This document shows, in pieces, positions 6,466 to 27,669 of a DNA stretch of 64,000 nt. The DNA comes from Candidatus Cottocaccamicrobium excrementipullorum (GTDB lineage: Bacteria > Bacillota > Clostridia > Lachnospirales > Lachnospiraceae): the NCBI GenBank assembly GCA_018713255.1, contig DVFL01000023.1, forward strand, positions 1 through 64,000, written 5' to 3'. Positions within the stretch are counted from its first letter, which is position 1. Each line of letters starts with the position of its first letter. A model generated the notes under the pieces. It was given only the letters and a program-made list of their open reading frames with translations, did not search any database and was not told where the DNA came from. Position numbers and translations under genes: made by a program.

Positions 6466-6888
6466 ATGACCAGAGACACCAAACGGCTGGTATGGCAGAT
6501 TACCGCAGGAATGGGATTATGGGGAATTGTCTTTGGAACCGCCGGCTTTTTTCTGGCGCCAGTTATGGGAGCAAATCCTGTGTCTGTGCTGGGAGGAATT
6601 CTGCTGGGCCTTGGGCTGGCTGAGCTGATGCTGGTTCATATGGCGGCGGTGGCTGAGCTGGCGGGAAAAGTCAGCCATCCAGAGGAAGCAAGGAAACGGG
6701 CGGCGGCACAAATTTTTGCCCGGAGGCTGATTGTTTTCGGCTTGCTGGCGGTAATTGCCTGGAAGGTTCCGCAGGTTAATATTTTGGCGGTAATTCTGGG
6801 GATTTTAGGACTTAAAGCAGGAGCTTATCTGCAGCCTCTGCTTTTCGGCAAAAAAAATAAGAACAATGAAGGGAGAAAACATGGGTAA
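6466..6888 (+). CDS. atpI: ATP synthase accessory subunit I (AtpI-like)
   Basis: A 140-residue membrane protein with about four hydrophobic segments, heading an ATP synthase operon. AtpI-type proteins help assemble the c-ring and are the usual first gene of sodium-type F-ATPase operons. The start at 6466 follows AAGGAGGG and gives a protein beginning MTRDTKRLVW; earlier in-frame codons reach back into the sortase and are not used. Its stop overlaps the start of atpB by 8 nt, so translation is coupled. The second ATPase operon in this window has no atpI. Assignment rests on size, topology and position more than on conserved residues. Confidence 0.75.
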   Translation: MTRDTKRLVWQITAGMGLWGIVFGTAGFFLAPVMGANPVSVLGGILLGLGLAELMLVHMAAVAELAGKVSHPEEARKRAAAQIFARRLIVFGLLAVIAWKVPQVNILAVILGILGLKAGAYLQPLLFGKKNKNNEGRKHG

Positions 6889-7570
6889 AGAACCGGACTT
6901 TATGATTCACGGGATCGTGAAGTACACCTTAGGCGGACAAGAATTGTGGCTGACGGATACTGTCATCAGCATGGCCATCATTTCCCTGAGCCTGATTGTA
7001 CTGGGATTGGCGGCGAAAAAAACCATGAAAAAGGCTTCTGAGGTGCCGGCAGGATTTCAAAATCTTCTGGAGGCAGGAGTGGAAATGCTGGAAAAGATGG
7101 GAACGGGAATAATGGGAGGCCGGGGGAGGTGTTTTTTTAATTATGTCGGCTCCGTTTTTCTCATTCTTCTGTTCTGCAATTTAAGCGGTTTGGCAGGACT
7201 CAGGCCTCCCACGGCGGATTTTGGAACGGCTCTGTTTTTCGGTATAGCCACCTTTGGGCTGGTGCAGTATCAGGGTATCAAAAACAGAGGAGTGAGGCAT
7301 TTTTCCAGTTTGTTTCAGCCGATTCCTCTGCTGTTTCCGATTAATCTTATTGGAGAGCTGACTGCACCCATTTCTCTTTCTCTGAGGCTGTTTGCCAATC
7401 TTTTATCGGGAGTCATTATTATGGGCCTGTGGTACGGGATAATGCCTTTGTGGGCCAATATAGGTATTCCTGCAGTTCTCCATGGATATTGCGATCTGTT
7501 TTCCGGCTGTATTCAGGCTTATGTATTTTGTATGCTGACGATGGTTTATCTTCAGGACAAGATGGAATAA
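6881..7570 (+). CDS. atpB: F-type ATPase subunit a (operon 1, predicted Na+ type)
   Basis: A 229-residue integral membrane stator subunit carrying the ion half-channels. The essential arginine is Arg169 in LSLRLFANLLSG, and the preceding PINLIGELTAPISLSL stretch is the family signature. Several transmembrane helices are evident. The start at 6881 is preferred to 6866 because AGGGAG sits at the right distance. It overlaps atpI and is followed 54 bp later by atpE. The predicted Na+ specificity comes from its partner subunit c and not from this protein alone. Confidence 0.93.
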   Translation: MGKEPDFMIHGIVKYTLGGQELWLTDTVISMAIISLSLIVLGLAAKKTMKKASEVPAGFQNLLEAGVEMLEKMGTGIMGGRGRCFFNYVGSVFLILLFCNLSGLAGLRPPTADFGTALFFGIATFGLVQYQGIKNRGVRHFSSLFQPIPLLFPINLIGELTAPISLSLRLFANLLSGVIIMGLWYGIMPLWANIGIPAVLHGYCDLFSGCIQAYVFCMLTMVYLQDKME

Positions 7571-7624
7571 AACGGGAAAAACGACAGAAAATATTCTTAA
7601 AATGAAAATGAAGGAGGAGCAGAA

Positions 7625-7879
7625 ATGAATATTTCTGGACAGGAATTTATTTACGGATGTTCTGCCATTGGCGCAGGTTTGGCCATGATTGCCGGAATCG
7701 GACCAGGAATTGGACAGGGAATTGCGGCAGGCCATGGCGCCTCTGCAGTGGGGAGAAATCCGGGGGCGAAAGGGGATATTACCTCTACTATGCTGCTGGG
7801 ACAGGCGGTGGCAGAAACTACGGGACTTTATGGTCTGGTGGTGGCGATCATTCTTATGTTTGTAAAGCCGTTTGGATAA
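7625..7879 (+). CDS. atpE: F-type ATPase subunit c with Na+-binding residue set
   Basis: An 84-residue two-helix proteolipid forming the rotor ring. The first helix carries Pro27 and Gln31 (GIGPGIGQG), the loop has RNPGAKGDI, and the second helix has Val62, Glu64, Thr65 and Tyr69 (AVAETTGLY). In the structurally characterised Na+ ring of Ilyobacter tartaricus the ligands are Gln32, Val63, Glu65, Ser66 and Tyr70, so this protein matches with an offset of one and Thr for Ser. This is the best evidence that operon 1 encodes a sodium-translocating ATPase. AAGGAGGAG lies upstream of the ATG. Confidence 0.95.
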
Positions 7880-7910
7880 GCGCTGGGATGTGCTGTGGAC
7901 TGAGGAGATG

Positions 7911-25832: not shown

Positions 25833-25841
25833 GAGGCAATC

Positions 25842-27242
25842 ATGAGCAAAGGAAGAATCGTGCAGGTTATGGGACCTGTGGTAGACGTAGCTTTTGAAGA
25901 TAAACACCTGCCTCATATCAAAGACGCCCTGGTGGTGGACAATAACGGCAAGCGGTCCGTAATGGAGGTAGCCCAGCATATTGGCGGCGGCGTAGTGCGC
26001 TGCATTATGCTGGCTTCCAGCGAAGGGCTTTGCCGGGATATGGAGGTGGAGCCGACTGGAGCAGGCATTAAGGTGCCGGTAGGTGAAAAAACCCTGGGAC
26101 GGCTGTTTAATGTTCTGGGTGAGACCATTGACGGCGGTGAAAGCCTGGAAGGGGAAGAAAAGTGGGTAATCCATCGGGATCCCCCGTCTTTCGAGGATCA
26201 GAGCCCTGTTGTGGAAATGCTGGAAACCGGCATTAAAGTTATCGACCTTCTGGCGCCTTATGCCAAGGGCGGAAAGATTGGTCTGTTCGGCGGCGCCGGC
26301 GTAGGAAAGACGGTGTTAATTCAGGAATTAATTACGAATATTGCAACGGAGCACGGCGGTTACTCTATCTTTACCGGTGTAGGTGAGCGTTCTCGTGAAG
26401 GAAACGATTTGTGGACAGAGATGAGAGAGTCCGGCGTATTAAATAAGACTGCGCTGGTATTCGGTCAGATGAACGAGCCGCCGGGAGCGCGTATGCGGGT
26501 GGCGGAAACCGGTCTTACCATGGCCGAGTACTTCCGTGATGTGAAGAAGCAGAATGTGCTGCTGTTTATTGACAATATTTTCCGTTTCGTTCAGGCGGGT
26601 TCGGAAGTTTCTTCCTTGTTGGGAAGAATGCCTTCTGCCGTAGGTTATCAGCCGACTCTGGCAACGGATGTGGGCGAGCTTCAGGAGCGGATCGCTTCCA
26701 CCAAAGAGGGCTCTGTAACTTCTGTTCAGGCAGTTTACGTACCGGCAGATGACTTAACAGACCCGGCGCCGGCGACAACGTTTGCTCATTTGGATGCAAC
26801 CACCGTTCTTTCCCGTAAGATCGTAGAGCAGGGTATTTATCCGGCGGTAGATCCGCTGGAGTCCACCTCTCGTATTCTGGAAGAGGATGTGGTAGGCAAG
26901 GAGCATTACCAGGTGGCCAATCAGGTGCAGCAGATGCTGCAGAAGTATAAAGAGCTTCAGGATATTATTGCGATTCTGGGAATGGAAGAGCTTTCTGAGG
27001 AGGATAAGCTTACCGTAAGCCGGGCCAGAAAGATACAGCGTTTCCTGTCCCAGCCCTTCCATGTGGCAGAGAATTTTACCGGTGTTCCTGGAAAGTATGT
27101 GCCGGTTAAAGAAACTATCCGCGGATTCAAGGCAATTATTGACGGCGATATGGACGAGTATCCGGAAGCGGCCTTCTTTAATGTGGGAACCATTGACGAG
27201 GTAGTGGAAAAAGCTAAGTCCATGGAGAGAAAGGAAAGTTAA
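25842..27242 (+). CDS. atpD: F-type ATPase subunit beta, catalytic (operon 2)
   Basis: A 466-residue catalytic subunit: P-loop GGAGVGKT at 150-157, [21 protein letters not shown] and [10 protein letters not shown] (DELSEED lever). AGGAGG lies upstream of the ATG. The epsilon gene starts 4 bp after its stop. All active-site motifs are intact. Confidence 0.97.
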
Positions 27243-27246
27243 GAAT

Positions 27247-27669
27247 ATGTCAACATTTTGGCTGAAGATCGTTGCCAGTGATCATGTGTTTTATAACGGA
27301 AACTGTGAGTCGCTGGTAGTCCCTGCCCATGACGGAGAGGTGGGGATACTGCCCCACCGGGAAGCCATGATTCTGGCCACTCAGGAGGGGGAGCTTAGAT
27401 TTAAAGCCCCTGGCGACGGTCAGTGGCGGAGGGCTGTGGTAGGCTTGGGAATCGTTCAGGTAGCCAATAACCGGGTGACGGTGATTGTAGATACGGCGGA
27501 GCGCCCGGAAGACATTGACGCAATCCGTGCAAAGCAGGCACTGGAGCGTGCCCAGGAGCAGATGCGCCAGAAGCAGAGCGTGCGGGAGTTCAGAATGTCC
27601 CAGGCGTCCATGGTAAGGGCCATTGCTCGTCTGAAGGGCAAGCAGGCCAGCGAATATAAGAATATATAA
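27247..27669 (+). CDS. atpC: F-type ATPase subunit epsilon, full length (operon 2)
   Basis: A 140-residue epsilon subunit: an N-terminal beta-sandwich (VPAHDGEVGILPHREAMI) and a complete C-terminal helical hairpin (DAIRAKQALERAQEQMRQ onward). The C-terminal helices can block ATP hydrolysis in many bacteria, so this enzyme probably keeps that control while the operon 1 enzyme does not. A terminator follows 6 nt after the stop. Confidence 0.92.
   Translation: MSTFWLKIVASDHVFYNGNCESLVVPAHDGEVGILPHREAMILATQEGELRFKAPGDGQWRRAVVGLGIVQVANNRVTVIVDTAERPEDIDAIRAKQALERAQEQMRQKQSVREFRMSQASMVRAIARLKGKQASEYKNI

Follow-up and report, generated by a model that had tools for sequence, protein, structure and literature searches.

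Organization of the two ATPase operons

The window, a stretch of 64,000 nucleotides from Candidatus Cottocaccamicrobium excrementipullorum (Lachnospiraceae; contig DVFL01000023.1, positions 1 to 64,000), carries two F-type ATPase operons on the forward strand, T1 (6463-13160) and T2 (21262-27669). Each encodes the full core set in one operon (subunits a, c, b, delta, alpha, gamma, beta and epsilon), with all reading frames open. Subunits were called by the general NCBIfam (TIGR) ATP-synthase models at the cut-offs of the models, and seven of the eight passed in either operon, the exceptions being epsilon in T1 (55.7 versus 67.25 bits) and delta in T2 (1.2 bits short). An earlier note on this DNA, which set the start of the region at 6466, at the atpI gene, described both operons as complete; the eight core genes are indeed present and open in both, but "complete" does not hold for T1, whose epsilon lacks PF00401. 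The genes of the two operons are listed below.

6463..6888 (+), atpI of T1; PF03899 with E 2e-4 and 22.1 bits, below the 25.1 cut-off; identities of 38-47% with eight congeners; start uncertain, a longer open reading frame (ORF) beginning at 6226
6866..7570 (+), T1 atpB (a); TIGR01131 above cut-off; conserved Arg seen by eye in ...SLSLRLFANLLSG
7625..7879 (+), T1 atpE (c); TIGR01260 above cut-off; Na+ ligand set
7908..8471 (+), T1 atpF (b); TIGR01144 above cut-off
8435..8983 (+), T1 atpH (delta), fast evolving; TIGR01145 above cut-off
9009..10550 (+), T1 atpA (alpha); TIGR00962 above cut-off
10547..11407 (+), T1 atpG (gamma), fast evolving; TIGR01146 above cut-off
11419..12828 (+), T1 atpD (beta); TIGR01039 above cut-off; P-loop and DELSEED intact by eye
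12825..13160 (+), T1 atpC (epsilon), N-terminal domain only; PF02823 only
21262..21948 (+), T2 atpB (a); TIGR01131 and NF004486 above cut-off
22046..22270 (+), T2 atpE (c), H+ type by prediction; TIGR01260 above cut-off
22402..22893 (+), T2 atpF (b); TIGR01144 above cut-off
22877..23401 (+), T2 atpH (delta), a separate gene; TIGR01145 56.3 bits, below the 57.5 cut-off
23413..24921 (+), T2 atpA (alpha); TIGR00962 above cut-off
24939..25832 (+), T2 atpG (gamma); TIGR01146 above cut-off
25842..27242 (+), T2 atpD (beta); TIGR01039 above cut-off
27247..27669 (+), T2 atpC (epsilon), C-terminal domain present; TIGR01216 above cut-off, PF02823 and PF00401

Predicted ion specificity of the c-rings

The c subunit of T1 (c1) has the ligands P27, Q31, V62, E64, T65, T66 and Y69; the corresponding residues in the c subunit of T2 (c2) are A, I, L, E, A, T and Y, respectively. 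Compared with the rule for Na+ c-rings (Gln/Glu32, Glu65 and Ser/Thr66, as excerpted from PMC2359735), the T1 c-ring holds the entire set plus P28, V63 and Y70, whereas that of T2 departs from it, places 32, 63 and 66 being occupied by I, L and A. Among the c subunits read in the window and family genomes, the ligand letters PQVETTY were found in all 22 scoring at least 118 bits against c1, and I, L and A occupy the Gln, Val and Ser/Thr places in all 21 scoring at least 88 bits against c2, three of the 21 coming from one genome. The closest solved structures to c1 are 4bem, 3zk1 and 1yce (top score 168 bits), which we take to be the c-rings of Acetobacterium, Fusobacterium and Ilyobacter; the 1yce entry is labelled sodium-specific. 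The same three structures are also the closest to c2 with a weaker score (72 versus 168 bits), and it is therefore the ligands, not the structure matches, that separate the ions. T1 is thus predicted to be Na+-coupled and T2 H+-coupled, a prediction that is sound, though only a prediction. The earlier note had arrived at two operons with different ions from the Na+ ligand set of the first c subunit and from Ile and Ala in place of Gln and Ser/Thr in the second; these residues are confirmed, with Leu for Val as a further replacement, and the c-subunit ligands carry the claim.

T1 epsilon lacks the C-terminal domain

The T1 epsilon is a protein of 111 residues with the N-terminal domain PF02823 and without the C-terminal domain PF00401, which is present in the T2 epsilon. 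Among 41 T1 epsilons, 39 have at least 129 residues and contain the C-terminal domain; the exceptions are those of the window and of the congener G060, the latter being 101 residues long. As the epsilon C-terminal domain is taken to be regulatory, T1 stays in the class of F-type ATP synthases. Removal of this domain raises hydrolysis in some species. Operon 1 is complete, as had been noted, with respect to its core genes, but its short epsilon had been overlooked.

Fast evolution of the T1 F1 part

Identities of the window proteins to those of up to eight congeners, with identities among the congeners in brackets, revealed a marked divergence of T1, which the earlier note did not pick up. The lowest values were found for gamma at 43% (82), delta at 37% (74) and epsilon at 30% (70), followed by b at 50% (81), a at 68% (88), alpha at 74% (92) and beta at 77% (94). 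The c subunit at 94% (98) is not accelerated, and both the adjacent sortase at 69% (66) and the T2 gamma at 90% (94; two congeners) are normal. A tree of 44 T1 operons, read by topology and branch length, joins the window to G060 and G002, and no tip in it is longer than that of the window (0.631; median 0.18). The next tip, 0.407, belongs to L042 (G023), a locus whose genome also carries both T1 and T2. Ranked subunit by subunit among the 44, the window tip is the longest in alpha, beta, gamma, delta and epsilon; it takes second place in b, seventh place in a and only 29th place in c (c tip 0.026).

The divergence reaches otherwise near-invariant columns: alpha is changed at 30 of 280 such columns, gamma at 27 of 81, beta at 8 of 133 and epsilon at 10 of 21, gaps making up three of the epsilon changes. 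The runner-up is always G060, with 10, 8, 5 and 6 changes in alpha, gamma, beta and epsilon, respectively. None of the 44 conserved columns of c is changed. Between the window and G060, the nonsynonymous divergence (dN) of gamma is 0.50 in T1 and 0.065 in T2 at similar synonymous divergence (dS), and the pairwise dN/dS of T1 gamma is 0.34. In a neutral simulation, in which the G060 gene was evolved to 80% of the observed divergence in 300 copies, no copy of gamma, two of alpha, four of delta and 14 of beta remained stop-free; this near absence of stop-free copies indicates that the T1 frames are under constraint. A structure model of T1 gamma built on a 9-sequence alignment (mean predicted local distance difference test score 77, predicted template modelling (TM) score 0.71) best matches a solved bacterial gamma at a TM score of 0.80, which lends weak support to a preserved gamma fold, as the gamma alignment itself favours that fold. 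On the evidence of the same synteny and of nesting with G060 and G002, the window T1 is, as judged from sequence, orthologous to congener T1; replacement by a foreign operon is ruled out on these same grounds.

Further energy-converting machines of the genome

Two V-type ATPase operons, absent from the earlier note, were found elsewhere in the genome on contigs C15 and C25. The C15 operon has a two-hairpin K subunit with a Glu in hairpin 2, the nearest structure being 2bl2 (E 1.6e-36), an entry named sodium ATPase subunit and presumably the K ring of Enterococcus hirae. It is of the NtpK type, with K, D, A and B above an NCBIfam cut-off; the C and I subunits match models below their cut-offs, the E subunit was assigned by position as no model matched at 1e-15, and the small F subunit was not found among ORFs of at least 90 residues. 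The C25 operon has a one-hairpin c subunit nearest to 5gar, which we take to be a Thermus V-type c, and is probably H+-coupled. The E. hirae enzyme is able to run both ways, according to the excerpt of PMC12018189.

Contamination of the genome bin by C15 was considered and is unlikely, G060 having the same operon with the same neighbour gene at 94%. The composition of C15 correlates with that of nine other pieces of the genome at 0.67-0.83, compared with 0.71-0.88 among those pieces, in a measure blunt enough that a congener reaches 0.85. Another neighbour gene on C15 counts towards contamination, as it is weak or absent in the genus (44-58% in three pieces in G002, 34% in G060, 30% in G062, none in seven genomes).

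An Rnf cluster is also encoded in the genome, as is an Ech-like NiFe complex whose subunits include antiporter-like, NuoH-like and 49-kDa-like ones. As both are present, two ion circuits in this cell are plausible.

Within the genus, an NtpK-type K subunit was found in two of 11 genomes, the window genome and G060, with identities between the two operons of 98% in K, 97% in B and 93% in A; the nine genomes without it include G002. The V-ATPase, the short epsilon and the raised F1 rate thus coincide in the window genome and G060 among the 11, and this coincidence may reflect a single event. The idea that an acquired Na+ V-ATPase makes T1 redundant arose from the window genome and 60 relatives, before anything was known of the epsilon or the V-ATPase of G060, though not as a formal prediction; the K-subunit search in the genus followed the discovery of the short epsilon in G060.

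Rotary ATPases across the family

The family sample comprised 160 genomes from 159 genera (the window's own genus twice), each at least 90% complete. Classes were assigned by c-subunit score with limits set after looking at the data, namely T1 (at least 100 bits), a third class T3 (73-87 bits) and T2; the c sequences actually read were 22 of T1, 21 of T2 and two of 15 of T3. Weak genomes were removed before counting, 15 from the T1 list (105 to 90) and 13 from the T2 list (73 to 60). T1 was found in 90 of the 160 genomes, T2 in 60 and both in 27, and their pairing is not rare in the family. The NtpK-type V-ATPase occurs in 42 genomes and meets T1 in only two, the window genome and G142, where about 24 would be expected under independence (Fisher p 3e-16, ancestry ignored). 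T3, assigned to 15 genomes by score, never occurs with T1 or the NtpK type. Taken together, a predicted Na+ rotary ATPase is present in 145 of the 160 genomes, 143 of which have one type only; a single predicted Na+ rotary type per genome is close to a rule in the sample, and the pairing of T1 with NtpK is rare. In G022 (L040), a genome tallied as NtpK without T1, the F-type c is unusual in combining Q, E and S/T (TQMETSY), and the F-type enzyme may also be Na+-coupled. In the open-licence PMC literature, covered mostly at the level of listings, no statement of such an either/or of Na+ F- and V-ATPases was found.

Rnf is present in 148 of the 160 genomes, and no signal of an association between Na+ ATPase and Rnf was seen among them (Fisher p 1.0). 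On an Rnf tree of 41 hand-chosen genomes (20 T1, 19 NtpK, two both), the T1/NtpK labels change 12 times, compared with a mean of 13.2 and a minimum of 9 in shuffles. As the labels are scattered on this tree, one deep split does not account for the exclusion and was rejected as its sole cause; many nodes of the tree are weak, the window stands apart from its congener G004, and Rnf may itself have been transferred.

Some further variants were seen in the c and delta subunits of the family. The two T3 c subunits read (L030, L054) have two carboxylates, with Glu at the Gln32 place and the ligand letters PEIETTY (compare PMC3692424). Odd F-type c subunits like that of G022 recur at L062, L063, L064, L068 and L071; in this group the Pro28 place is taken by Thr or Val (TQMETSY and related forms). 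Two T2 c genes, with starts about 0.25-0.32 kb apart, were found in G116, G127 and G176. At four loci (L027 4261-6279, L028 4207-6243, L034 4205-6235, L051 4218-6236) in T2-type operons of four relatives, delta and alpha form one in-frame fusion with delta on the N-terminal side (OSCP and alpha domains in a single ORF); in L038 and, by eye, in L016 and L024, alpha carries no more of delta than its C-terminal half. In a literature search, the titles of the matches listed name no delta-alpha fusion.

A proposed displacement of the Na+ F-type ATPase

Based on these findings, we propose, with a probability of about 0.57, that T1 has been displaced by the Na+ V-ATPase and released from regulation, yet has been kept intact as a minor Na+ machine. 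The ancestor of the window species and G060 would have acquired the Na+ V-ATPase, which would have assumed the main Na+ circuit beside Rnf. T1 would then no longer be the sole Na+ synthase, its regulation and the tight fit among its F1 parts would relax, and its Na+ ring would stay under selection. Given its open frames and retained ion site, T1 would still rotate with Na+ coupling, though in a secondary capacity, and the H+ circuit would fall to T2 and the Ech-like complex. A wider proposal, that Na+ F- and V-ATPases replace each other repeatedly in gut bacteria of the Lachnospiraceae type and that the window represents a half-way replacement with the epsilon latch discarded, F1 rebuilt and the Na+ rotor frozen, is put forward tentatively and falls short of even odds.

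Several points weigh against displacement. The effect is limited to one lineage of two genomes, so that the link amounts to one event or two, and the short epsilon tails of the window and G060 differ from each other. The gain of the V-ATPase is one that we infer and is undated, and four of the nine genus genomes without the K subunit are less than 90% complete. G142 has T1 and the NtpK-type V-ATPase, yet its T1 tip is normal and its epsilon full-length, indicating that both enzymes together do not force a change of T1. The changes in a (3 of 49 conserved columns) and b (2 of 19) are unexceptional, other operons reaching 5 and 8, and the dS values of the window are mostly above 1, near saturation. 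Finally, deletion of the epsilon domain in Bacillus subtilis decreased ATPase activity and H+ pumping, as reported in the excerpt of PMC6692558.

The normal T1 of G142 beside a V-ATPase would also suit an ordinary two-circuit cell, with T1 a working Na+ synthase on Rnf, T2 an H+ synthase on Ech, and the divergence an adaptation with its role kept. Such a cell accords with the presence of Rnf and the Ech-like complex and with T1 and T2 sharing 27 of 160 family genomes, but it does not account for the epsilon truncation (seen in 2 of 41), for an acceleration concentrated in F1 or for the further predicted Na+ machine, and we regard it as unlikely, although the most serious of the rivals. Decay of T1 towards a pseudogene might be read from the truncated epsilon and the near-invariant columns changed in alpha, gamma and beta (30/280, 27/81 and 8/133); the open frames, the scarcity of stop-free neutral copies in all four subunits simulated and the 44 unchanged c-ring columns make it improbable. 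Fast gamma, delta, epsilon, alpha and beta around a frozen rotor would fit selection on the motor and not on the ion site, and hence a remodelling of F1 under positive selection towards a different function, for instance the export of Na+ at the expense of ATP with the epsilon latch gone. However, the pairwise dN/dS of gamma is 0.34 between the window and G060, and the B. subtilis deletion lowers pumping, leaving this the least credible of the explanations.

Comparison with known systems

Paired Na+ and H+ synthases and the two-circuit idea are of a known kind and not new. "Two ions, two ATP synthases" has been published for Pseudobutyrivibrio, and the excerpt of PMC11187502 recounts the two-circuit metabolism of Pseudobutyrivibrio ruminis from Schoelmerich et al. 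2020. Like the window species, P. ruminis belongs to the Lachnospiraceae; it combines Rnf on Na+ and Ech on H+ with a pair of ATP synthases that use different ions. Whether its Na+ enzyme is F- or V-type is unstated in that excerpt, which names no short epsilon or fast F1. With this published case and with Rnf and the Ech-like complex in the genome, the earlier suggestion that one ion makes ATP and the other serves pumping or balance is plausible, but it is not novel.

T1 shares its c-ring ligands with the Na+ F-ATP synthases of the solved rings 4bem, 3zk1 and 1yce, but differs from them by the absence of the epsilon C-terminal domain and a highly diverged F1. A second F-type operon in one genome, one of the two with a predicted Na+ ring, resembles the N-ATPases, which lack delta and have atpR (excerpt of PMC4154653), whereas both window operons have delta. 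On the alternate-F1F0 models TIGR03305 and TIGR03324, T1 scores 592.3 (cut-off 752) and 606.8 (cut-off 750.5) and T2 608.6 and 593.1, and an N-ATPase identity of either operon was rejected on the presence of delta and on alpha and beta below these cut-offs. The two-hairpin K subunit of C15 is like that of the NtpK-type Na+ V-ATPase (2bl2), but the setting differs, C15 sharing its genome with T1 as in two of the 160 family genomes. If the proposal is true, the either/or together with the dual lineage would offer a natural test of the purpose of the epsilon domain, of how tightly F1 and Fo co-evolve and of how one rotary ATPase supplants another.

Pentose block and genomic neighbourhood

The interval between T1 and T2 and the T2 flanks contain the following features, all on the forward strand.

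13114..13977 (+), AraC-type regulator; PF12833, PF02311; start uncertain, overlapping T1 atpC at its 3' end
14323..15846 (+), FGGY sugar kinase, xylulokinase-like; PF00370, PF02782
15871..16488 (+), DUF4867 protein; PF16161
16569..18047 (+), L-fucose-isomerase-like protein; PF02952
18131..20116 (+), transketolase; PF00456, PF02779, PF22613
20288..20941 (+), transaldolase / F6P-aldolase (fructose 6-phosphate aldolase); PF00923
21199..21227 (+), promoter-like site TTGAAA-17-TATAAT (11/12) upstream of T2; consensus scan only
27676..27717 (+), terminator-like hairpin of 18 pairs 3' of T2; longest stem in the region

A sortase lies within the T1 stretch of all eight congeners with T1 that were read. 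In the window, T1 is followed by the block from araC to T2, and the order is the same on one contig in G060 and across two contig ends in G002. The stretches read downstream of T1 in G001, G004, G005, G062 and G064 yielded no gene of the block; gene g32 comes 3.5 kb behind T1 in G001 and 2.3 kb behind it in G005. The G003 contig ends inside T1, and T1 gamma was not found in G061 (84% complete) and G063 (83% complete). The T2 gamma is present in three of the 11 genus genomes, including the window's. The location of T1 is thus fixed within the genus, and T2 stands together with the pentose block in a sub-clade.

Coordination of the pentose operon with membrane energetics, as suggested in the earlier note, is not borne out: the pentose and T2 block is a genus-level neighbour of T1 that was not found behind T1 in the stretches read of several congeners. 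The AraC gene and the final part of T1 epsilon overlap, and the regulator may share a transcript with T1. Promoter-like sites are not enriched in the region (15 versus a shuffle mean of 17.0), terminator-like sites number 19 versus a shuffle mean of 13.6, and a hairpin with a T run lies 3' of the transaldolase gene by eye; none of the promoter, hairpin or AraC-overlap data shows coordination. On the 5' side of T1 lie a Glu-rich, probably secreted protein of 1734 residues (227-5431) and, between it and T1, the sortase (5480-6316). The 1734-residue protein is only about 50% alike across the four genomes compared.

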